From a virus, in IMG/VR virus record IMGVR_UViG_3300037502_004027, positions 1 through 24,837 of that record: a DNA stretch of 24,837 nt; one strand, given 5' to 3'. Positions 103 to 19,583 of the stretch are shown here, in pieces. The position numbers were made by a program, and so were the translations under genes. The notes beneath the pieces were generated by a model that saw only the letters and a list, made by a program, of their open reading frames with translations, was not told where the DNA came from and ran no database searches. Numbering within the stretch: position 1 is the stretch's first letter; the number at the start of each line of letters is the position of its first letter.

Positions 103-549
103 TTAACTTTCAATATAAATTTTTGATAATTTATTTTTTAATTTTTTTAAAGCAGTGTCTACTTTTCTTTTAGATTTTATTAAGTCTCCAACTTTGGCAT
201 CTATTTCAGATTGCATTTCGCAAGATTGAGTTTCTAGTTGACTTATTTGTTGTTTTAAATCAGAAACATTTGTATTGTGTTCAGGAATAAGGCATTTAAT
301 AACTAAATATTCGCCGCATCCTGAAGCTGAGGACCATTTACATAGTTTGGTTAACTTAAATATTGAAGATGGTTTCAAACTAGCAATTCTCTTTTTTTGA
401 GAATCAGAAAAATTATCATTATTCATAACATCTGATAATGTAAATTCTGAAGGCATTGATCTATAATGATCAAAATATCCATTACTTTCTCGCAAAATAC
501 GGCATGAGCCAGAATCATCGGCTATATAAAATTTATATTTTTTATTCAT
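103..549 (-). CDS. Hypothetical protein with C-terminal coiled coil
   Basis: 148 residues, not recognised. The N-terminal two thirds is a mixed soluble region with three cysteines; two of them lie in the stretch KWSSASGCGEYLVIKC. From about residue 95 to the end the sequence is a long heptad-like helix rich in Lys, Glu, Gln, Leu and Ile (DLKQQISQLETQ, then KSKRKVDTALKKLKNKL), which predicts a coiled coil and so oligomerisation. The start ATG overlaps the stop of the upstream gene in an ATGA arrangement, so the two are probably translationally coupled. No membrane segment or signal peptide is visible. Function unknown. Confidence 0.75.
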   Translation of the reverse strand: MNKKYKFYIADDSGSCRILRESNGYFDHYRSMPSEFTLSDVMNNDNFSDSQKKRIASLKPSSIFKLTKLCKWSSASGCGEYLVIKCLIPEHNTNVSDLKQQISQLETQSCEMQSEIDAKVGDLIKSKRKVDTALKKLKNKLSKIYIES

Positions 550-4057: not shown

Positions 4058-5113
4058 ATGAGTGATTATATCAAAAGCATCAATTTTCAAGAGCTAATTG
4101 AATTAACAAATGAATCATCTTTGGTTTCCAAGACTGATGCTAAAGGTACTATAACTTATGTAAATGAAAAATTTATTAAAATATCAGGTTGGTCAAAAGA
4201 AGAATTAATAGGGGCAAATCATAATATTGTCAGGTCTGGATTCCATGACAAAGAATTCTGGCAAGATATGTACAGAACAACAATAAAAGACAAGAAAATA
4301 TGGAATAAAATTGTTACAAACAAAAATAAAAACGGTAAACTCTACTATGTAGATACTTTTATCAAAGCACATTTTAAAAACAATAAATTAATTGGTTTTA
4401 TTTCTGTAAGACAAGATGTTACCAGTATCGTAGAAACTTTAAATGATTTAAATCAAAAAAATGGATACTTAGAGCATGCTGCCAAAATTTTAAGACATGA
4501 CATGCATAGCGGAATCAATGTTTATATCCCTAGAGGAGTAGCTTCTTTAGAAAGAAGATTAACCGAAGAAGTAATAAATAAACTTAAACTTAATGCCCCT
4601 ATTAAACTAATTAAAGAAGGCTTAGAACATACTCAAAAAGTATACAAAGGCGTAAAAGAGTTTACTAATTTAGTTAAAAATAACTCAACACTAGATAAAA
4701 ACGAATATGATTTAAAGTCAATTTTAAATCATTATTTAAGTACCACTGCTTATAAAGACCAAATTATAATTAATGACTTAATTAGTCTAGAAGTTAATGA
4801 ATCTCTTTTTTGTACAGCCATAGATAACTTAATTAGGAACGGTCTAAAATACAATGACTCAGAAAACAAATTAGTAAAAATTTATATGGATCAAGATTAT
4901 TTATGTGTAGAAGATAATGGTCGTGGTATGACTCCTGAAGAGTTTGAAACATTTTCAAAACCTTATGCTAGAAAAGCAGCACAATCTGAGCCTGGAACCG
5001 GATTAGGTCTAAATATTAGCTTAGCAATTTTAAAAGAACATAATTTTACCGTAGAATGCCACAAAATACAAAATAATAATGTCGGAACAATCATAAAAAT
5101 TAAATTGAGGTAG
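4058..5113 (+). CDS. Soluble PAS-domain sensor histidine kinase
   Basis: 351 residues. An Aer-like PAS domain covers about residues 14-125 (TDAKGTITYVNEKF, GWSKEELIGANHNIVR, NKNKNGKLYYVDT), a type that in known proteins often senses redox state through FAD. A dimerisation and phosphoacceptor helix follows with RHDMHSG, His147 being the likely phosphorylated residue. The ATP-binding domain has an N box (DNLIRNGLKYN, 256-266), a G1 box (EDNGRGM, 285-291) and a G2 box (GTGLGLN, 313-319). No membrane segment is present, so it should act in the cytoplasm. It is followed after two bases by a response regulator. The kinase motifs look intact; the ligand is unknown. Confidence 0.92.
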   Translation: MSDYIKSINFQELIELTNESSLVSKTDAKGTITYVNEKFIKISGWSKEELIGANHNIVRSGFHDKEFWQDMYRTTIKDKKIWNKIVTNKNKNGKLYYVDTFIKAHFKNNKLIGFISVRQDVTSIVETLNDLNQKNGYLEHAAKILRHDMHSGINVYIPRGVASLERRLTEEVINKLKLNAPIKLIKEGLEHTQKVYKGVKEFTNLVKNNSTLDKNEYDLKSILNHYLSTTAYKDQIIINDLISLEVNESLFCTAIDNLIRNGLKYNDSENKLVKIYMDQDYLCVEDNGRGMTPEEFETFSKPYARKAAQSEPGTGLGLNISLAILKEHNFTVECHKIQNNNVGTIIKIKLR

Positions 5114-5115
5114 TA

Positions 5116-5550
5116 ATGCTTATCGAATCAATATTGCTAGTAGATGATGAAAGCTTGTTTCATTTAGTATTTGAAGATGCTTGCAGCTTATTAGATATTT
5201 CTTTAAATCTATACAGCATCAGCAAATCTGAAGATGCAGAAAAGCTTTTTCAACAAATCCAAGAAGGTAAAATCAAAAAACCAGATTGCGCTTTCGTAGA
5301 TTTAAATATTGTAGGCTCTAGTTTTGATGGTATTGAATTAATTAACAAAATTAATCATCAATATGGCAACGGCTGTGTGATAGGTATTATATCTTCTTCT
5401 TCTGACAAAGTAGAAATTACTAAAGCCAAGTCTGTAGGCGCTCAATTTTGGATTGTAAAATCTGATGAAATAGAACCTAGATTAAATGAATTTAAAAAAG
5501 ATTATGAAGGTTACAAGAATAAAACAAATCCTTTTAAGGTCTACAAATGA
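5116..5550 (+). CDS. Single-domain response regulator (CheY-like)
   Basis: 144 residues forming one receiver domain. The acidic pocket is Asp10-Asp11 (LLVDDES), the phosphoacceptor is Asp62 (CAFVDLNIVG), the conserved Ser is in IISSSS (93-96) and the conserved Lys is Lys115 (FWIVKSDE). No DNA-binding or enzymatic output domain follows, so it should act through protein contact, as CheY does. It has a good GAGGTAG ribosome-binding site, starts two bases after the kinase gene and overlaps the next gene by four bases. Partner of the adjacent kinase by context; its target is probably the membrane protein encoded next. Confidence 0.9.
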   Translation: MLIESILLVDDESLFHLVFEDACSLLDISLNLYSISKSEDAEKLFQQIQEGKIKKPDCAFVDLNIVGSSFDGIELINKINHQYGNGCVIGIISSSSDKVEITKAKSVGAQFWIVKSDEIEPRLNEFKKDYEGYKNKTNPFKVYK

Positions 5551-6095
5551 AATTAAATAAAGAAGCAGAAGAGATATTAATTAATATAGCCGCCGATAAA
5601 GGGCTGTATGTTGAAGGAAACATATTAAAAGTTATCGAAAGTGATAACGAAAAATTTTCTTCATATCTTTCAACTGCTATTGAAAAAGATAAAGAAACTA
5701 GAAGAAAAAGATTAGAAATTACAAAACAAATTCAAGAACAAAATGTTGAGTTAAAGAAAAGTCAAGATAAAAATAAAATATTAATGGAAGATTTGCAATC
5801 GGCTCTTAAAACAACAGAGGATGCTAAAAAAAGCATTGAAAGCGATTTAGAAATACTTCAAAAGAAAAAGCAGTTCGAACTTATAGACATAATAGTCCGA
5901 ACTGCCTTATTCCTAATAGTAAGCGTTGGCATAGTTACTACAATATTATTTATTTTTACAATAATAAAAGGAACGGAAACACAACTAGTAGGTCATGCCT
6001 GGACCTCTATGTTTAGCATTTTATTAACCAATAGCTTTAGTATTATTGGTACTATAATGGGCGTTAAATATGCTTCCAATAAAAATAATGAGTAA
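5547..6095 (+). CDS. Coiled-coil membrane protein, putative output of the two-component operon
   Basis: 182 residues, not recognised. The first about 45 residues are a small soluble region. Residues about 45-110 form a long charged helix (KDKETRRKRLEITKQIQEQ, QSALKTTEDAKKSIES) typical of a coiled coil. Two membrane segments follow, about 113-136 (ALFLIVSVGIVTTILFIF) and 152-174 (SMFSILLTNSFSIIGTIMG), and a short charged tail. No signal peptide. The start overlaps the stop of the response regulator (ATGA), which strongly couples the two. Inferred role: inner-membrane effector or receptor for the response regulator. Nothing in the sequence identifies a transport or enzymatic activity. Confidence 0.8.
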   Translation: MKLNKEAEEILINIAADKGLYVEGNILKVIESDNEKFSSYLSTAIEKDKETRRKRLEITKQIQEQNVELKKSQDKNKILMEDLQSALKTTEDAKKSIESDLEILQKKKQFELIDIIVRTALFLIVSVGIVTTILFIFTIIKGTETQLVGHAWTSMFSILLTNSFSIIGTIMGVKYASNKNNE

Positions 6096-8004: not shown

Positions 8005-8250
8005 TTACGTCTCGTTCCCAAAAATTTCGGATTCTTTAATCTCAGATATTTTTTTATCACGTAAAATATTATTAATCTTATGCACTACTGCATCTAATTT
8101 CCCGATAATAAAACTTTTATCATCTACTGTAGCTTCTAATTGATGAAGTGCATAATTCAATTCATCTAAATAAGATGGGTTCAATAAATTAGCTAACTTT
8201 TTAAGTTCATAAGCCGCAATTTTTTGATTACTTTCTTTACGATTAATCAT
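8005..8250 (-). CDS. Small helical hypothetical protein
   Basis: 81 residues, not recognised. The sequence is helical and charged (AAYELKKLANLLNPSYLDEL, NYALHQLEATV, LDAVVHKINNILRDKK). There is no cysteine, membrane segment or catalytic motif. The start ATG is preceded by GAATAAGAAAAA, a weak ribosome-binding site. It lies in the same minus-strand run as its neighbours. Confidence 0.7.
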   Translation of the reverse strand: MINRKESNQKIAAYELKKLANLLNPSYLDELNYALHQLEATVDDKSFIIGKLDAVVHKINNILRDKKISEIKESEIFGNET

Positions 8251-8650: not shown

Positions 8651-8993
8651 ATTTATTTTCTTTCAAAAATGCATCAATTTTTTCTTCAGGAATATTATTT
8701 TCCTTTGCAAAATTTTTAAAATTAACAAGCATATCATAATGAGGATATTCTGTTGCATCATACAATGCATTGTGTATATCTAAATACCCTGCAGACATAG
8801 CTGGTATATATGCCTCAGGTCCAAACTTAAATACCTCATACAAGGCGTACCGATATGAACCTCTATCTACCAGATCAGCTTGATTAAGCCTTTTTACCAC
8901 AGCGCAAAAGGCATGTAAACGCTCTTTATTAGATAAAGATTCCCAATATTTCTCTGAAATATCTTCTTCAGATTTTGTATTATTTTCTTTCAT
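8628..8993 (-). CDS. Hypothetical protein
   Basis: 121 residues, not assigned. It is helical throughout, with KERLHAFCAVVKRLNQADLV, RGSYRYALYEVFKFGPEAYI and an acidic tail. The motif DRGSYRYALYEVF followed by AYIPAMSAGYLDIHNALY has the look of a conserved small phage family. The start overlaps the upstream stop by four bases (ATGA). It is a soluble cytoplasmic protein by composition. Confidence 0.7.
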   Translation of the reverse strand: MKENNTKSEEDISEKYWESLSNKERLHAFCAVVKRLNQADLVDRGSYRYALYEVFKFGPEAYIPAMSAGYLDIHNALYDATEYPHYDMLVNFKNFAKENNIPEEKIDAFLKENKYDSFFKL

Positions 8994-9385
8994 AGATTTA
9001 ATATGGTATATGGCTTATTACCATAAACTTTTCCCTCTTCTGCTTGTCTGCTAACATAAACTGGTTTAGCAACTTCGCCTTGAGCCGCAAAATAACCCAC
9101 AATGCCTTGCAATAATAAATCTCTATTAGTTTCTGGTTCAAATCCAGAATGATGATTTAACGTTAACATTAACTTTTGATAATCTTTTGGATTAATAGCT
9201 ACAGAAACGCAATTATCTTCAAATAAGCAAAAAGATATTTGTTTTAATAAACAATTCTCATAATCATTCACTTTGCCCTCAACTCTTTCTTTTAATTCTG
9301 AATTTTTAATTGAAGGTCCAGTATAAAGATTACTCCAGCCTTCTTTCTCTAGCATGTCTAGAAATTGCTTGTCAACTTGCTTCAT
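8990..9385 (-). CDS. Hypothetical protein with NPKDY motif, possibly leaderless
   Basis: 131 residues. The N-terminal part is helical (MKQVDKQFLDMLEKEGWSNL). The middle contains CVSVAINPKDYQKLMLTL and later GEVAKPVYVSRQAEEGKVYG. It shares the I/V-x-NPKDY motif and a following P-[VI] strand with the gene at 2386-2709, so the two are probably distant paralogues. Its promoter -10 box lies only 6 bases upstream of the ATG, which would leave no 5' leader. A downstream start at the internal Met11 is possible, but no Shine-Dalgarno site precedes it. First gene of a seven-gene run. Confidence 0.7.
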   Translation of the reverse strand: MKQVDKQFLDMLEKEGWSNLYTGPSIKNSELKERVEGKVNDYENCLLKQISFCLFEDNCVSVAINPKDYQKLMLTLNHHSGFEPETNRDLLLQGIVGYFAAQGEVAKPVYVSRQAEEGKVYGNKPYTILNL

Positions 9386-9391
9386 GCAAGC

Positions 9392-9419
9392 ATGATAATT
9401 TTTAAAATTAAACTGTCAA
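9392..9419 (-). promoter_or_regulatory. Sigma70-like promoter of the 9385-to-7258 operon
   Basis: The minus strand has TTGACA (complement of 9414-9419), a 16-base spacer and TATCAT (complement of 9392-9397). The predicted start of transcription falls at or next to the ATG at 9385, so the first gene would be translated without a leader. Confidence 0.65.
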
Positions 9420-9431
9420 GCCCGCACAATT

Positions 9432-9465
9432 AAAAAAAGAAGAGCGTCTCCACTCTTCTTTTAAA
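9432..9465 (-). terminator. Rho-independent terminator of the small lipoprotein gene
   Basis: A 10-base stem, AAAAGAAGAG (9435-9444) with CTCTTCTTTT (9453-9462), encloses an 8-base loop. On the minus strand it is followed by a run of seven T. It lies 20 bases after the stop of the small gene at 9482-9622, between that gene and the next promoter. Confidence 0.75.
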
Positions 9466-9481
9466 ATTAGAACAAATTAAT

Positions 9482-9622
9482 TCATTTATTGTTAGATAAT
9501 AACACAGAATCACTTGAACTGACTAATTTACATGAAGTAAATGTTGAGACTGTAATTAATGCAACAGCAATAAATAAAGGAGTAAAACTAGCTGCCCCTA
9601 CTACTAAAAAATTATTTTTCAA
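9482..9622 (-). CDS. 46-residue putative lipoprotein or single-span membrane protein
   Basis: A TTG start (complement of 9620-9622) lies five bases after AGGAGG, the best ribosome-binding site in the window. The protein opens MKNNFLVVGAASFTPLFIAV, then ALITVSTFTSCKLVSSSD, ending LLSNNK. It has a positively charged N-terminus, a hydrophobic stretch (residues 5-28) and Cys31 preceded by F-T-S, a lipobox-like site although Phe at -3 is not ideal. It would be a lipoprotein exposed at the periplasm, or a small membrane protein if uncleaved. It has its own promoter and terminator, as phage morons do. Possible roles are superinfection exclusion or an o-spanin-like lysis function; neither is shown. 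Confidence 0.7.
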   Translation of the reverse strand: MKNNFLVVGAASFTPLFIAVALITVSTFTSCKLVSSSDSVLLSNNK

Positions 9623-9673
9623 ATAAACCTCCTATAATTTATTTGTGCGTAAAATTTGCACCTTTATATTTAT

Positions 9674-9701
9674 ATCATAATTTTTATAGATTTGATGTCA
9701 A
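9674..9701 (-). promoter_or_regulatory. Sigma70-like promoter of the small lipoprotein gene
   Basis: The minus strand has TTGACA (complement of 9696-9701), a 16-base spacer and TATGAT (complement of 9674-9679). The leader of about 45 bases contains GTGCAAATTTTACGCAC, an imperfect inverted repeat at 9645-9661, before the AGGAGG site. With perfect -35 and near-perfect -10 boxes this should be a strong host-type promoter. Confidence 0.7.
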
Positions 9702-9717
9702 ATACATTTATTTTAAT

Positions 9718-9749
9718 AAAAAAAGGAGAGTGTTTCCACTCTCCTTTTT
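9718..9749 (-). terminator. Rho-independent terminator of the prkA operon
   Basis: A perfect 12-base stem, AAAAAGGAGAGT (9720-9731) with ACTCTCCTTTTT (9738-9749), has a 6-base loop. On the minus strand it ends in a run of eight T. It lies 19 bases after the prkA stop and closes the long minus-strand operon. Confidence 0.85.
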
Positions 9750-9768
9750 AACTCTATATCATATACAT

Positions 9769-11700
9769 TCAACTATCTCGCCACAAATTCGCCGCTGCAA
9801 AAGATAATATCTCTTCCGCCGAATCAGGGCTATACCCAATTTTCATCAACTGCTCTGTCATCTCTGAATATTTCTTCTGCTGCTCAGAATCTCTTGTCTT
9901 GCTCTTAGTTACAATCCTAGCAATTGACTTAATGCCAGTAATCAAATATGACTCAATCGCTTCCTTCAAAGGCTCATAACTAGTATATTTAATACTATCT
10001 CCTCGCCTCATCCTAGAAAACATATATGCCGTCACATCACTTCTAAAGCCATCCTTAGATGAACCAGTAATTCCAATCTGCTCCTCAATAGATTTAAGGA
10101 ATTGTTCATCAGGCTGACGCTCTTCTTTAGTCACACGATCCTTTAGTTTAGTACGTGTTACATAAGCCTCTGCATGATCCATATAGTTTTCAAACAAAGA
10201 TTGAGCTTGCTCTTCATAAGCAGTAATAAATGCCTTGGCAATTTCGCTTTCTAGTATCTTTAAATACTCTTCTCGAATTACTTTTTGTAGCAACTCTAAG
10301 CAATGTGCCTTAAATTGCTCATCAGTAATTTGCTCTTTCACCATTTTAGTTAGTGAATTAATCACACTAACTGGAGTAATCATGTTCTTTTCAGAATTGG
10401 TTAAAGCATGATCTAACGCCTTAGTGATAAATCTAGTAGAAATACCATCCAATCCTTCATGCTTAGCCTCTTCTCGTAGATCCTTAATATCTACTTTCTT
10501 GACTCTGCCCTTCTCAATAATATCCTCACCATTGTAAATCTTCATCTTGGTAAGAAGGTCACATTTATTAGATGTCTTTAATCGACTCATTACTGAGAAC
10601 ATAGATGCTACTTTCAAAGTATGAGGGGCAATATGTGCTGTGAAATCAGATTTTCCTAACATCTTTTCATAAATTTTAATTTCTTGATTTAATTCAAGAC
10701 AATAAGGAACTGCTACTTTCACAATACGGTCTAAAATAGCCTCATTAGTATGTTCTGATTGGAACCTATTCCATTCAGCTTCATTGCAGTGAGCTAAAAT
10801 GACACCATCAAAATGAAGCATGTCTGATTTACCAGGAGAAGGTACTCGTTTTTCCTGAGTGGCTGTAATAATAGTATGTAAGAATTCAATTTCATTCTTA
10901 AATACTTCTACCAATTCTACAATGCCACGATTACCTACGTTAAAAGCACCGGTTAATGATAAAGCTCTAGGGTCATCTTCTGAGTACTTATCTAGTTTAG
11001 AAATGTCTACTGAGCCAATAAGTACGGATACGTCTTGAGAGTTAGCATCCATAGGAGGTACAGCAGCTACACCACGTCTAGCTCTTTGGGAAAAAGAAGT
11101 TTCTTCTACTTCGAAGTTTTCATATTTACCATCTAGTTCATTCATTAATTTATGACGAGCTACTGGAGAAATATCTCCTTCAATTTTTACATTTAAAGTT
11201 TTTTCAAAATTATCTCGTAAAGAGCGAGGAATTAATTGTAAAGGCTCACCACGATGAGGATCGCCCTTTAGATGGTAGTATTTCTTACTTTCTAGTGCCT
11301 TTTTAATATGTTCAGTGAGGGCAGACTTACCGGCACCTACAGGACCCATGAGCAACAATACTTGTCTAGATTCTTCACCACGTTGAGCGGCAGAAGATAA
11401 GAATGACATAACTTTGTTAATGACGTTCTCCATGCCGAAGAATTCGTTTTCAAAGTATTTATAGAGTTTGATATTATCTCCGTCAAAAATTTTACGTTTA
11501 CGAATATCGGAATCTGGCATAGTATCTACGCCGTGTTCGACAATTGACTCGTAAAGTCTTTTATGAGCGCTTTTTACAATAGATGGATCTTTTTCTACTA
11601 GCTCAATATAATCCATCAAGTTACCAGAAAACTTTTTATTTTGACTGGCAGATTCTCTTGCTGATTGAATTTGTTTTAATAGTTGTTCTTTGGTGCTCAT
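9769..11700 (-). CDS. prkA: PrkA/YeaG-family AAA+ serine protein kinase
   Basis: 643 residues, the length of E. coli YeaG. The N-terminal AAA domain has Walker A GPVGAGKS (119-126), a Walker B-like DGVILAHCNEAEW (298-310) and NQEIKIYEKML (338-348), all in the order found in bacterial PrkA. The C-terminal part (about 400-643) matches the PrkA C-terminal domain, with GISTRF and an ending resembling YeaG (QQKKYSEMTEQLMKIGYS). In bacteria PrkA acts with YeaH and SpoVR in starvation or stationary phase, as a protein kinase, though an AAA+ protease-like activity has also been proposed. Here yeaH and spoVR homologues lie just upstream in the same run. The start has a clear AGGAAAT site. Motifs look intact, so activity is likely. 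Confidence 0.95.
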   Translation of the reverse strand: MSTKEQLLKQIQSARESASQNKKFSGNLMDYIELVEKDPSIVKSAHKRLYESIVEHGVDTMPDSDIRKRKIFDGDNIKLYKYFENEFFGMENVINKVMSFLSSAAQRGEESRQVLLLMGPVGAGKSALTEHIKKALESKKYYHLKGDPHRGEPLQLIPRSLRDNFEKTLNVKIEGDISPVARHKLMNELDGKYENFEVEETSFSQRARRGVAAVPPMDANSQDVSVLIGSVDISKLDKYSEDDPRALSLTGAFNVGNRGIVELVEVFKNEIEFLHTIITATQEKRVPSPGKSDMLHFDGVILAHCNEAEWNRFQSEHTNEAILDRIVKVAVPYCLELNQEIKIYEKMLGKSDFTAHIAPHTLKVASMFSVMSRLKTSNKCDLLTKMKIYNGEDIIEKGRVKKVDIKDLREEAKHEGLDGISTRFITKALDHALTNSEKNMITPVSVINSLTKMVKEQITDEQFKAHCLELLQKVIREEYLKILESEIAKAFITAYEEQAQSLFENYMDHAEAYVTRTKLKDRVTKEERQPDEQFLKSIEEQIGITGSSKDGFRSDVTAYMFSRMRRGDSIKYTSYEPLKEAIESYLITGIKSIARIVTKSKTRDSEQQKKYSEMTEQLMKIGYSPDSAEEILSFAAANLWRDS

Positions 11701-11708
11701 CTTATTTC

Positions 11709-11921
11709 CTAAACTCTTCTAAACGTTTTCCCAAACTTAGCTGGTGGAAGATTCATAGAATGATCTTCTTCATTTTCTTGATTTTCTTGATTTGATTGTA
11801 ACTCGTTAATAATCTCTTGCAAATATAAAACAATTTCTCTTGCTTTATCTTGTTCAGAATCTGGCTTTCTTAAAATAGAAAGAATAGTATGATAATAATT
11901 ATTTTTATCTATTATATTCAT
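11709..11921 (-). CDS. Small hypothetical protein between spoVR and prkA
   Basis: 70 residues from the ATG complement of 11919-11921, starting MNIIDKNNYYHTILSIL; a TTG three codons upstream is an alternative. The first half is helical (EQDKAREIVLYLQEIINEL), the middle is a Gln-, Asn- and Glu-rich linker (QSNQENQENEEDHS), and the tail is basic (PPAKFGKTFRRV). I know of no such gene in the bacterial prkA-yeaH-spoVR clusters. Its position, one base from the spoVR stop codon and eight from the prkA start, suggests a phage-specific partner or adaptor of that system. Function unknown. Confidence 0.65.
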   Translation of the reverse strand: MNIIDKNNYYHTILSILRKPDSEQDKAREIVLYLQEIINELQSNQENQENEEDHSMNLPPAKFGKTFRRV

Positions 11922-11922
11922 A

Positions 11923-13248
11923 TTAGTCAATAGAAATTACCTCATCATTTACTTTAGCTAATAACCTAACAGCATTGCCCCACAAAGTCTTAATATGATG
12001 TACTACTGTAGTAGCATATGTTACTTCTAAATCCCTTCCATCGTGTTCATGATATAAAACCAATTCATTATTTCTTCTAACTTCTTCTATGTACACAATT
12101 GGAATAGACCCGCCACCAACAGATTGGGCTAATTCATTTCTAATAACTTCCCAACCATCTTCATCAGATATATCTTCAACTACTAATCCATGACCTCTTT
12201 TTTTGACGTAACTGAACAAATTTAATTCAGCACATAATTCTTGGTCAAGATATTGCCTAATAAATGACGCATCGTGGCAAGCCTCTCTAGCAATCAAACA
12301 TTCTTCCCAGCCATATTTGTTTTCTATATGCCTAAAAAGATGAAAGCCAAGATGATAAGGATTAATAGATCCTACATGAGGACGAATTACTTGATTATGA
12401 GATTTGATAATAGGAAGATGTAATTCAGAGTCTAAATCTAGATCGTGGCAAATTTTATAATGTGTGTAACTAGCAACGCCTTCATTGATTATCTTAGTTT
12501 GGATTTGTGGCCAGAAATATTGACCTTCATCTCTGATGATATCAATAATATCTCTTTTCCAACTAGGCAATTTGGCATTCTCAGAAATGAAACCTAATAA
12601 ATCATAATCTGGTTCCAATGGAATTTTCTCTAATTCTCTTTCTAATCTTATTTTTCTATTAGATTCATTTCTAATTTTAGCTTCTTTTAATTCTTGTAAT
12701 TTTTCTTCTCGTACTTCTTCCTGTGTTCTACGACGCAATCCATATTTAGTAGTCTGAAACTGAATAGCGTGGCAAGCATCAATTATTTTTTCTACTTGCT
12801 CAATGCCAATATTAGGATCCTCTACATATGATTGAATTCTTTTTTTGGCAGCTCTAAATCTTTGAATGACAGATTCAGGTCTGGTATCTTTGAACATTCT
12901 GTTGTTTTTGAAAAAATCAGAATGTCCCACACAATGAGCCATAATCAAAATCTGTAAATAAAGAGGATTTTCTCTCATCAAATAAGCAATGGAAGGATTA
13001 CTATTAATAATTAGTTCGTAAGGGAGTCCCTCCATGCCAATATCATACATTTGATGAGTTCGCTCAAATGATTTACCAAAAGACCAATGACTATACATAG
13101 ATGGCATGCCATGGTGAGCCATAGCTCCAATCATTTCATAATAGTCAATTGTTTCATATTCAATTGGAAATGGATCTAGCTTGTACTTAGGATAAATCTC
13201 ATTAATTTTTTCATCCCACTTTTCTAGATCCTCTAATGTATAATCCAT
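11923..13248 (-). CDS. spoVR: SpoVR/YcgB family protein
   Basis: 441 residues, slightly shorter than B. subtilis SpoVR or E. coli YcgB. The conserved core is clear: MYSHWSFGKSFERTHQMYDI (51-70), GLPYELIINSNPSIAYLMRE (74-93) and QILIMAHCVGHSDFF (99-113), followed by the IQRFR and CHDL-containing helical body. SpoVR is needed for spore cortex formation in Bacillus, and in other bacteria it belongs to the PrkA-YeaH-SpoVR stress set; its biochemistry is not known. It starts at an ATG with CGAGG seven bases upstream, two bases after the yeaH stop. The conserved His, Cys and Glu residues of the core are present, so the protein is probably functional. Confidence 0.95.
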   Translation of the reverse strand: MDYTLEDLEKWDEKINEIYPKYKLDPFPIEYETIDYYEMIGAMAHHGMPSMYSHWSFGKSFERTHQMYDIGMEGLPYELIINSNPSIAYLMRENPLYLQILIMAHCVGHSDFFKNNRMFKDTRPESVIQRFRAAKKRIQSYVEDPNIGIEQVEKIIDACHAIQFQTTKYGLRRRTQEEVREEKLQELKEAKIRNESNRKIRLERELEKIPLEPDYDLLGFISENAKLPSWKRDIIDIIRDEGQYFWPQIQTKIINEGVASYTHYKICHDLDLDSELHLPIIKSHNQVIRPHVGSINPYHLGFHLFRHIENKYGWEECLIAREACHDASFIRQYLDQELCAELNLFSYVKKRGHGLVVEDISDEDGWEVIRNELAQSVGGGSIPIVYIEEVRRNNELVLYHEHDGRDLEVTYATTVVHHIKTLWGNAVRLLAKVNDEVISID

Positions 13249-13250
13249 AA

Positions 13251-14429
13251 TTAAACCTCGGAGTCTACTCCATTTAAAATATTCTTAAACGCTAACCAAA
13301 CATCTTCTTTCTTTAAGATGTATGCCGTATGCAATTTTTTATCTCTTAACGGCTGCAATACGTCATATAACGTAGTTGGTTGCTGATAGGTATCATCTGA
13401 TGTGTCTTTGTCTGGAGATATTTCACAATATCCAAATAACTGACATATCTCTTTTAATTCTGAAACCTTATCTGCAAAAGGCTTATTATCAAAACTATAA
13501 TTATCTCCATCGCTACATTGGAAAATATAAATATTCCAAGCAGAAGGATGATATCGTTTATCTATAATGTCATGTACTAAAGTTACACCAGTAGAGGCAA
13601 CTGTTCCACCATATGTACTTTGAGTAAAGAAAGCTTTTTCATCTACTTCTCTAGCTTCTGCATCATGGGTGACAAAGACGATATCTAATGTTTCGTATTT
13701 GCTACGAAGGAATTGATACATAAGAAAGCAAAAGCTTCTAGCTAAAAACTTTTTATCAGTGCTCATCGAGCCTGAAACGTCCATTAAGAAAAAGACTACT
13801 GCATTAGTGCAAGGCTCTTGTTTCAATTTAAAATGACGATATTTCAAATCATCTTCATGAAATGGGAAAGTTTCGCCTTCTTCTGCTGTTTCTGGGTCGA
13901 ACCCAGAAGCTTTCATACGTTTAATTCTAGCAATGGCAGATTTCTTTTTATCTAATCTAGGAAGAATACCATCTGGTCTGTAGCCAGAGCGTTTTAATTT
14001 ATCTTGAGAGATGTTGGCTAATTGTTTTCGCTTTAATTCTGGTAATTGTAGTTCTGAAAAAAGATAATCAGATAGTTCCTCTAGTGAAATTTCTACGTCG
14101 TAAAATTCCTCACCTTTATCATTCCCTCCTTTATTTCCAGGAGCATTTTGCTCTTGATCCGCATCCCCAATTTTTTGACCTTTTTTAAGATCTTTACCAG
14201 GAGCAGACCCAACTTTCTTACTAGAATTGGCGCCATATACAAATTTATATTCTTTAATACCTCTTACTGGTATTTTGAATTTCTTTTTGCCATTTTCACC
14301 AATAATAGACTCTTCTGCAACAATTTTGTGAATCCCTTCTTTGATCGCTTTTTGTATCTTTTCTTTATGACGACGCCTATCAGAAGCAGAACGATCAGCA
14401 CTAGTTTTATGTTCTCTAAAAATGCTCAT
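13251..14429 (-). CDS. yeaH: YeaH/YhbH family protein with VWA-like domain
   Basis: 392 residues, the length of B. subtilis YhbH. The N-terminus has the family signature DRSASDRRRHKEKIQKAIKE (12-31) and KKKFKIPVRGIKEYKFVYG (48-66), a Gly-, Lys- and Asn-rich linker, then a VWA-like domain with MIDAS motif MDVSGSMS (Asp217, Ser219, Ser221). In bacteria yeaH is co-transcribed with prkA and may be its partner or substrate-presenting factor. It is directly followed by spoVR and then prkA; the order yeaH-spoVR-x-prkA differs from the usual prkA-yeaH-spoVR. Cytoplasmic by sequence. Confidence 0.93.
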   Translation of the reverse strand: MSIFREHKTSADRSASDRRRHKEKIQKAIKEGIHKIVAEESIIGENGKKKFKIPVRGIKEYKFVYGANSSKKVGSAPGKDLKKGQKIGDADQEQNAPGNKGGNDKGEEFYDVEISLEELSDYLFSELQLPELKRKQLANISQDKLKRSGYRPDGILPRLDKKKSAIARIKRMKASGFDPETAEEGETFPFHEDDLKYRHFKLKQEPCTNAVVFFLMDVSGSMSTDKKFLARSFCFLMYQFLRSKYETLDIVFVTHDAEAREVDEKAFFTQSTYGGTVASTGVTLVHDIIDKRYHPSAWNIYIFQCSDGDNYSFDNKPFADKVSELKEICQLFGYCEISPDKDTSDDTYQQPTTLYDVLQPLRDKKLHTAYILKKEDVWLAFKNILNGVDSEV

Positions 14430-15968: not shown

Positions 15969-17207
15969 TCAGAATTGATCTTCTTCAGTAGAACCATGTA
16001 AAGCCAAAGTAGAAGATTTGCCTGCAGAAATTACTTGAGCTACTTGATCAAAGTAAGAAGTTCCTACTTCCCGCTGATGCTTAGTGGCAGTATATCCTTT
16101 TTTCTCTGCATTAAATTCTGCTTGTTGCAATTGTGAATAAGCCGCCATTCCACGATCTTTATAAGCATGAGCCAATTGATACATAGAATGGTTTAGTGTA
16201 TGGAATCCAGCTAAAGTTACAAATTGGAATTTGTATCCCATAGCCCCTAATTCTCGTTGGAACTTAGCAATTGTTTCATCATCTAAATTCTTCTTCCAGT
16301 TGAAAGAAGGGGAGCAGTTATATGCTAGCAACTTTCCAGGAAATTTGGAATGTATAGCTTCTGCAAACATTTTAGCTTGTTGTAAATCAGGAGTAGAAGT
16401 TTCCATCCAAATCAAATCTGCATATGGAGCATATGCTAAACCACGAGCTACAGCTCTTTCCATGCCAGTCCTGCAAAGATGATAAAAACCTTCTGAAGTA
16501 CGTGGCTTATTACCCTCAATATAATCATGATCATATGGATCAACATCACTAGTAATTAAATTAGCCGAATCTGCATCAGTACGAGCGATAATAAGAGTAG
16601 GAACGCCCATTACATCAGCGGCGAGACGTGCAGCAGTTAATGTTCTAATGAATTGAGAAGTAGGAACTAATACTTTACCTCCCATGTGACCGCATTTTTT
16701 TTCTGAAGCTAATTGGTCTTCAAAATGAACAGCTGCAGCTCCAGCCTCAATCATAGCTTTAGTTAATTCAAAGACATTAAGAGGACCGCCAAATCCGGCT
16801 TCTGCATCAGCCACAATAGGGGCGAACCAATCTGTGTTAGATTTACCCTCAGATGTTTCAATTTGGTCTGCTCGTTGTAATGCATTGTTAATGCGTTTAA
16901 CTACAGAGGGAACACTATTAGCTGGATATAGGCTTTGATCTGGATACATTTCCCCGGCAAGATTGGCATCAGCAGCTACTTGCCATCCAGAAAGATAAAT
17001 AGCTTTTAATCCGGCTTTAACTTGTTGCATAGCTTGATTGCCGGTAAGAGCACCTAGAGCGGCAACGTATGGTTCTTCATGAAGAAGTTTCCACAACTTT
17101 TTAGCACCATCGGTGGCTAAGGTATAAGCGATTTGTTTGGAGCCACGTAAACGAACTACATCTTCGTGAGAATAATTTCTGACAATGCCTTGAAATCTAT
17201 CTTTCAT
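15969..17207 (-). CDS. aceA: Isocitrate lyase
   Basis: 412 residues, close to bacterial isocitrate lyases. It splits isocitrate into glyoxylate and succinate, the first step of the glyoxylate shunt. Visible family motifs: [20 protein letters not shown] (71-90), ADAEAGFGG (133-141, metal-binding Asp), [18 protein letters not shown] (161-178) with catalytic Cys172 in KKCGH, and NCSPSFNW near residue 300. All catalytic residues I can check are present, so it should be active. Its G+C content appears higher than that of its neighbours, which suggests acquisition from a host. It has AGAGGAA as ribosome-binding site. Malate synthase, the next enzyme, is not in the window and would have to come from the host. 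Confidence 0.97.
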
Positions 17208-18262: not shown

Positions 18263-19510
18263 TTAGGCTCCATAATCAGTTTTCCAAGGAGGGAAGCCTA
18301 ATACTTTAAACAAATCTAATTTATTTGGAGTATTGTCGTATTGAGTTCTAGTTACATTGCCATAAGCTATTACAGATGGATTAGTAAAACTATACTTTAA
18401 CATATAATTATTGGCAAATATAGCAGAATTACCATTTCCTCCAAATAAAAAAGCCCTATCATAGATAATAGCTAAATGAGAAGAAGATACGTTTCCTGGA
18501 ATAGTTTTTCCTGAATCTCCCCATTGAAGCGGAGTATTTAAATTACATTGCAATATTTTTGTTTGATATTTTTCATTATAAGTAGCGCTATTGGTAGGCG
18601 CAATTAAATATCCTTTGTCACCAACTGTAAAAAATTGACCTGAACAAGATTCTAATGGCAAAATATAAGCAGAAGTAGACCAAGTAGTAGGATCGCTAAG
18701 TGAAGCGGTAAAAATACTATTTATAGCATATCCATCAAAGTTTTGCCCTCCAAATAAATACACATTAGTATCTATGATGGCTAGATGAGAATTATACAAA
18801 GGAATAGGCAGTGTAGATCCAGTATCTTGCCAAGATAATGGATTGCTAGTTGACGCTCTTAAAATAGCTGCAGTTGCATGAGTAATTTCATATCCGCCGA
18901 ACAAATAAATGTAACCATCTATAATAGCCAGTTGAGAATTTTGAACTCTTTTAGGTAAAAGAGGTCCATGATCGGTCCAATTTAATGGATCAGTTACACT
19001 AGCAGAATAAATATGATCGGTGGATTGAGTGTCAGCTCCTCCAAACAAGTAAATATAACCATCTATAATAGCTAATTGTGAACCAGAGATAGGGCTAGGC
19101 AATATTCCAGAAGTAACTTCCCACTCTGCAGGTCTATTCAAATTGGCTCTAAGTATAGAATCTGAATGTTTACCACCAAAAATATATACGCTGCCTTGAT
19201 ATCCGTCATAACCATCAACATATCCATCAATTACCGCAATTTGTCCTTCATAAACAGAAAGCGGTAACACTTTTTTCATAGCAGACCAAGTAACTATGTC
19301 TGGAAAAGATATGTTTAAAGGAAAATTAAAATCTGCAATAACAGAACTATCTAAAATAGCATAAGCAGTAACATCTACTAATGGATTAGATCCAGATTTT
19401 AAACCAGTATAAAAATTTCCATTAAAATCGGGCTCATCATCTACTACCCAAGTTCTATATTGAGTAATATTTAGATCTACGTCCCTGCCAATCATTTTAT
19501 AGCGTACCAT
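18263..19510 (-). CDS. Kelch-like beta-propeller protein, probable virion or attachment protein
   Basis: 415 residues from the ATG complement of 19508-19510; a TTG five codons upstream and an ATG five codons downstream are also possible. The body is built of repeated blades with the pattern SQLAIIDGYIYLFGG, then an Asx- or Thr-rich loop and an I-x-x-A-S-x-x-P-x-x-W strand (IYSASVTDPLNW, ILRASTSNPLSW, IFTASLSDPTTW, ILQCNLNTPLQW). I count about six or seven blades from residue 85 to 380. The flanks (RDVDLNITQYRTWVVDDEPD, then DLFKVLGFPPWKTDYGA at the end) are not propeller. Such phage propellers usually sit on tail or neck structures and bind proteins or sugars. It is the first gene of the long minus-strand run that later carries aceA and prkA. 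Confidence 0.8.
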   Translation of the reverse strand: MVRYKMIGRDVDLNITQYRTWVVDDEPDFNGNFYTGLKSGSNPLVDVTAYAILDSSVIADFNFPLNISFPDIVTWSAMKKVLPLSVYEGQIAVIDGYVDGYDGYQGSVYIFGGKHSDSILRANLNRPAEWEVTSGILPSPISGSQLAIIDGYIYLFGGADTQSTDHIYSASVTDPLNWTDHGPLLPKRVQNSQLAIIDGYIYLFGGYEITHATAAILRASTSNPLSWQDTGSTLPIPLYNSHLAIIDTNVYLFGGQNFDGYAINSIFTASLSDPTTWSTSAYILPLESCSGQFFTVGDKGYLIAPTNSATYNEKYQTKILQCNLNTPLQWGDSGKTIPGNVSSSHLAIIYDRAFLFGGNGNSAIFANNYMLKYSFTNPSVIAYGNVTRTQYDNTPNKLDLFKVLGFPPWKTDYGA

Positions 19511-19583
19511 GCATAAATACTGCAATATTCAGGGATATAAATATTATTTTACTCTTAATTATCAATAAAAAAATATTACATAT
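19511..19583. promoter_or_regulatory. Divergent promoter region, weak candidates only
   Basis: Minus strand: TTGATA, 16 bases and TATTTA would serve the kelch-to-prkA operon, a poorer match than the other promoters of the window. Plus strand: TATAAATA (19536-19543), the form of T4-type late promoters, lies 40 bases before the gene at 19584. In sequence this AT-rich neither can be called with certainty. Confidence 0.3.

Follow-up and report, generated by a model that had tools for sequence, protein, structure and literature searches.

A 383-base gap between prkA (9769–11700) and a 131-codon gene (8990–9385) houses a minus-strand cassette that, with a probability of roughly 0.55, we consider to be a real and self-contained accessory (moron-like) gene from which a huge phage makes a small lipoprotein. 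The stretch analyzed, hereafter the window, is the whole 24,837-base IMG/VR record IMGVR_UViG_3300037502_004027. It is a fragment of a huge phage, with genes for a phage lysozyme and an HNH endonuclease, a cluster of prkA, DUF444 and spoVR, and a weak match to a virion protein; the IMG/VR contigs closest to it in PrkA reach 361 kb. The existence of the cassette is held with high confidence. It probably gives rise to a 46-residue membrane-anchored peptide, which is likely a lipoprotein precursor.

Anatomy of the cassette and its surroundings

An earlier sequence-only reading had described a promoter, AGGAGG, a TTG start, 46 codons with a hydrophobic N-terminus and a cysteine, and a terminator, all inside 9432–9701. 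Every one of these parts is present there as described, and the strand, which had been left unstated, is the minus strand. The features of the locus are as follows.

9769–11700, minus: PrkA serine kinase gene (PF08298, 2e-139), upstream neighbor, outside the cassette
9717–9751, minus: prkA terminator, upstream of the cassette, 86% identical to the cassette terminator
9674–9701, minus: sigma70-type promoter of the cassette, TTGACA-16-TATGAT, 11 of 12 consensus bases
9628–9633, minus: Shine-Dalgarno (SD) sequence AGGAGG, 5 nt ahead of the TTG (9622–9620), conserved in the relative
9582–9638, minus: module of SD, start and codons 1–14, 86% identical to positions 290679–290736 of the relative G001
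9482–9622, minus: 46-codon open reading frame with TTG start and TGA stop (9484–9482), putative lipoprotein precursor, N-terminus homologous to gene L083 of the relative
9532–9530, minus: Cys31 codon of the 46-codon frame
9435–9462, minus: intrinsic terminator of the cassette, hairpin and U tail, −15.5 kcal/mol, z −5.1, beginning 20 nt past the TGA stop
9392–9419, minus: second promoter, TTGACA-16-TATCAT, serving gene 8990–9385, with 71% identity to that of the cassette
8990–9385, minus: gene for 131 amino acids without assigned function, downstream neighbor, outside the cassette

The pattern TTGACA-N15-18-TATNAT had two sites in the window compared with 0.28 expected, and both lie at the cassette locus. 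The full AGGAGG was found for the cassette gene alone among the 31 window genes checked, most of which have a weak SD or none, and, in the nearest relative, for 3 gene starts out of the 242 (1.2%) that some 174 kb contained. Exactly one frame in the real window had both a lipobox of the PS51257 type and an SD in which five or all six bases match. Frames of 30–120 amino acids with this combination appeared in none of 200 dinucleotide-preserving shuffles of the whole window, and frames of 40–120 amino acids under equal SD and lipobox criteria in none of 20,000 shuffles of the intergenic gap. Codon use of the 46-codon frame was weakly gene-like, scoring above 99.3% of stop-free shuffles (0.7% reach it); it is not strong evidence. 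The antisense frame outscored it in codon use, but has no SD.

Several further observations concern the two promoters and their surroundings. The sequence AAAAATTATSAT occurs in three copies, at 408–419 (plus), 9392–9403 (minus) and 9674–9685 (minus), against 0.17 expected. A phage-specific promoter class was considered and not retained: in the relatives the strict promoter was not enriched over a reversed-pattern control, and the one copy near prkA in the relative falls within a gene. The last base of the second promoter lies 7 bases from the ATG of gene 8990–9385; since this gene has no SD and the promoter ends just before its ATG, a leaderless mRNA is predicted.

Other genes of the window were noted as well. 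The genes for PrkA, DUF444 (YeaH-like) and SpoVR are grouped at 9769–14429 (minus), and relatives of PrkA are encoded on 192 IMG/VR stretches; the jumbo phage RsoM2USA likewise carries prkA and spoVR (PMC8504454). Adjoining this cluster is an isocitrate lyase family gene (15969–17207, minus; PF00463, E 4e-108), an unusual metabolic gene for a phage. Three consecutive genes (4058–6095, plus), for a PAS histidine kinase, a response regulator and a protein whose C-terminal segments are hydrophobic, run opposite to the majority of the window genes, and a Kelch-repeat protein (18263–19525, minus) weakly matches a family of virion structural proteins (phrog_16120, E 6e-6).

The encoded peptide and its longer relative

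The 46-residue product, MKNNFLVVGAASFTPLFIAVALITVSTFTSCKLVSSSDSVLLSNNK, has a lysine at position 2, a charge-free stretch of 28 residues, Cys31 within F28-T29-S30-C31, and 15 residues after it. Lipoprotein precursors under a PS51257-type rule have a lysine or arginine in the first seven residues, an uncharged hydrophobic core and a lipobox cysteine at positions 15–35. The peptide conforms to this rule, with Cys31 in FTSC, and its hydrophobic region is long for a lipoprotein signal. It does not match the strict lipobox [LVI][ASTVI][GAS]C in the form used in PMC11893012, having Phe at −3. Protein searches in IMG/VR, phage records, Pfam, PHROGs and PADLOC gave nothing significant: PHROGs gave no match better than one of E 0.1 to an unknown family, and tblastn against phages returned no match.

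One homologue was found, by searching the whole records behind prkA loci (24 records covered). It lies on the 361-kb contig IMGVR_UViG_3300034073_005389 (G001), whose PrkA is 96% identical to that of the window. The DNA match covers the SD and first codons (86% over 58 bases, 290679–290736, E 4e-11), and the protein match covers residues 1–32 (53%, E 2e-5 for that genome among the 24 records searched). The gene of the relative has 201 codons (290117–290719, minus), and its ATG start aligns to the TTG of the window. In the signal region, 17 of 31 residues are identical and Cys31 is in register. The first 14 residues agree at 13 positions counting the initiator, two of them (A11, T14) via synonymous change; residues 15–28 are mostly divergent with hydrophobicity retained; and T29-S30-C31 are conserved, with synonymous changes at T29 and S30. 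This homology of the start region supports the strand, frame, TTG start and export signal of the window gene. Conservation of the cysteine and the hydrophobic segment, which had been set beforehand as a test of the sequence-only reading, was thus observed, in one relative only.

The 201-residue protein is itself a putative lipoprotein and is probably exported. It comprises a signal region in which both C28 and C31 are possible, a DAG-rich linker and about 125 further residues, whereas the cassette peptide has neither the linker nor the long mature part. Homology is limited to the signal peptide, and the very short mature tail of the cassette product is unique to it. The suggestion that the cassette product is a lipoprotein gains support, short of proof, from the signal peptide and Cys31 that it has in common with this longer lipoprotein-like protein. 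When IMG/VR was scanned for the signal module, with degenerate DNA patterns and by alignment, the 361-kb relative was the sole match. Small lipoprotein-like frames are present on other prkA-bearing contigs too.

For the 201-residue protein, Pfam, PHROGs and PDB gave no match, and an AlphaFold model from the single sequence (pLDDT 32) was not usable. A PsbP/DcrB-like domain suspected by eye found no support. Two bacterial matches to this protein covered mostly signal and linker and were not accepted as homologues, and a second, weak match from the whole-record search (G012, E 0.014) was to an unrelated frame and was dropped.

A variable site and the competing readings

The site downstream of prkA is variable, since different genes occupy it in the four closest PrkA relatives: an EamA-type transporter in L003, a homologue of the 7258–7566 gene of the window in L004, a GIY-YIG/NUMOD3 endonuclease in L005 and another gene without assigned function in L006. 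In L003, a homologue of the 8628–8993 gene of the window comes after the transporter. Close relatives thus lack the cassette at this position, and at the sequence level it has its own promoter and its own terminator. Moron loci such as that of HK97 gp15 likewise have their own promoter and terminator at a site of variable content. In addition, the terminator and promoter repeat in the same order about 284 bases apart (86% identity over 35 bases and 71% over 28). The description of the locus as a moron-like, self-contained cassette holds on these grounds, with a duplicated flanking terminator-promoter module in addition. The flanking repeats fit acquisition of the cassette through recombination at similar boundaries; they may also reflect no more than the natural likeness of two terminators, and of two promoters, within a single phage. 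As a separate observation in this region, L003 18411–18920 is a fusion of two seemingly separate window genes, 8005–8250 and 8990–9385 (the first half recognized by eye), an apparent case of gene shuffling among small families.

Of the other explanations, the one that we regard as possible but doubtful is a remnant: the mature part of a larger lipoprotein would have been lost by deletion or recombination, leaving a functionless peptide. The 201-residue homologue matches in the signal peptide alone, the 16-residue mature tail has no relatives, and the window has TTG where the relative has ATG, all of which speak for such decay. Against it, the near-consensus dedicated promoter, the full SD and the terminator are all intact, and no comparable promoter or hairpin directly flanks the gene of the relative, so that the cassette is more than a version of that gene shortened where it stood. 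The two loci differ in position: the 201-codon gene follows another gene some 25 kb away from prkA and has no promoter-terminator frame, whereas the cassette adjoins prkA. An unlikely further reading is that prkA-bearing huge phages reuse a module of about 57 bases, consisting of SD and signal peptide, recombined with unrelated mature parts: the 16-residue tail here, the 170-residue linker and domain in the relative. New envelope lipoproteins could then arise quickly, and the duplicated terminator-promoter blocks would serve as recombination handles.

It is also unlikely that the peptide remains unprocessed, its 28-residue stretch being a transmembrane segment or stable signal peptide that perturbs the inner membrane in the fashion of a small holin or a colicin lysis protein. 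The long hydrophobic core, the weak lipobox and a mature part too short for folding are in keeping with this, but T29-S30-C31 are conserved through synonymous change, in register with a probably exported longer protein, and the endolysin gene is 2.2 kb off on the other strand. We consider it very unlikely that the transcript acts as RNA, or that promoter and terminator serve only as insulation between prkA and the gene that follows, with the frame incidental. Strong hairpins do bound a short transcript; yet the full SD is correctly spaced, the start and signal peptide are homologous to those of the 201-residue protein, Rfam and tRNA scans gave no matches, and the predicted fold of the entire transcript is just a little more stable than those of shuffled sequences (z −1.6). 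The sequence-only reading had also offered an Rz1-type lysis protein. A small lipoprotein-like frame in a phage would suit an outer-membrane spanin subunit, but there is no overlapping or adjacent i-spanin frame, the mature part is not proline-rich and the gene lies outside any lysis cassette and does not adjoin the endolysin gene; on gene arrangement and composition we rejected this identity, to which we assign a negligible probability.

Proposed role and meaning

On the preferred reading, a real accessory lipoprotein gene, host RNA polymerase would produce a short, strong transcript of about 230 nt, and its TTG start would be translated well owing to the full SD, an uncommon feature among these phages. 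Sec would export the 46-residue precursor, Lgt would acylate it at Cys31 and signal peptidase II would cleave it, so that some 16 residues (CKLVSSSDSVLLSNNK) stay behind as a lipopeptide in the host envelope, held by the lipid anchor. Most likely this lipopeptide would alter the envelope of the infected cell to the advantage of the phage; our confidence in such an accessory envelope function, as predicted from sequence, is moderate.

Colicin lysis (bacteriocin release) proteins and entericidins are similar to the cassette peptide in precursor size and have a lipoprotein signal. The cassette differs from them in lacking a colicin or antidote partner and in a mature part about half as long, and no match to either family was found for the peptide.

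Exclusion of rival phages, which the sequence-only reading had proposed alongside help in lysis, is tentatively the leading single possibility for the role. Phages are known to encode lipoproteins of this function (PMC9586334, PMC11893012, PMC13164509), and lipoproteins with demonstrated exclusion also occur outside Llp/Cor (PMC11893012). The superinfection exclusion lipoproteins Llp (phage T5) and Cor (T1/phi80-type phages) resemble the cassette product in being encoded by a small phage lipoprotein gene. In Llp, however, the mature part spans 58 residues or more and contains a Cys11-Cys58 disulphide, and the gene is beside that of the receptor-binding protein (PMC9586334), whereas the cassette peptide has about 16 mature residues and no second cysteine, and its gene adjoins prkA. 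Neither Llp/Cor homology (PHROGs, phage tblastn) nor a cysteine pair was found in the 46-residue peptide, which has one cysteine, and no receptor-binding or tail-fibre gene lies beside the cassette, whose neighbors are prkA and the 131-residue protein gene. Membership of the Llp/Cor family was rejected on cysteine count, mature length and gene neighborhood. Folding, or the plugging of a receptor in the manner of Llp, is also improbable for a tail of about 16 residues, so any exclusion would operate by different means.

The cassette gene is of an ordinary kind among phage accessory genes. Small accessory lipoproteins are one means by which phages alter infected cells, and genes such as this one, with 46 codons and a TTG start, are easily overlooked by gene callers. 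If expressed, it would provide a compact and testable envelope peptide in a huge-phage group, for which a search of 50,697 phage records gave no close match, and the common signal sequence would offer a handle for finding further such genes. If a remnant, it would still document the movement of signal sequences between genes.
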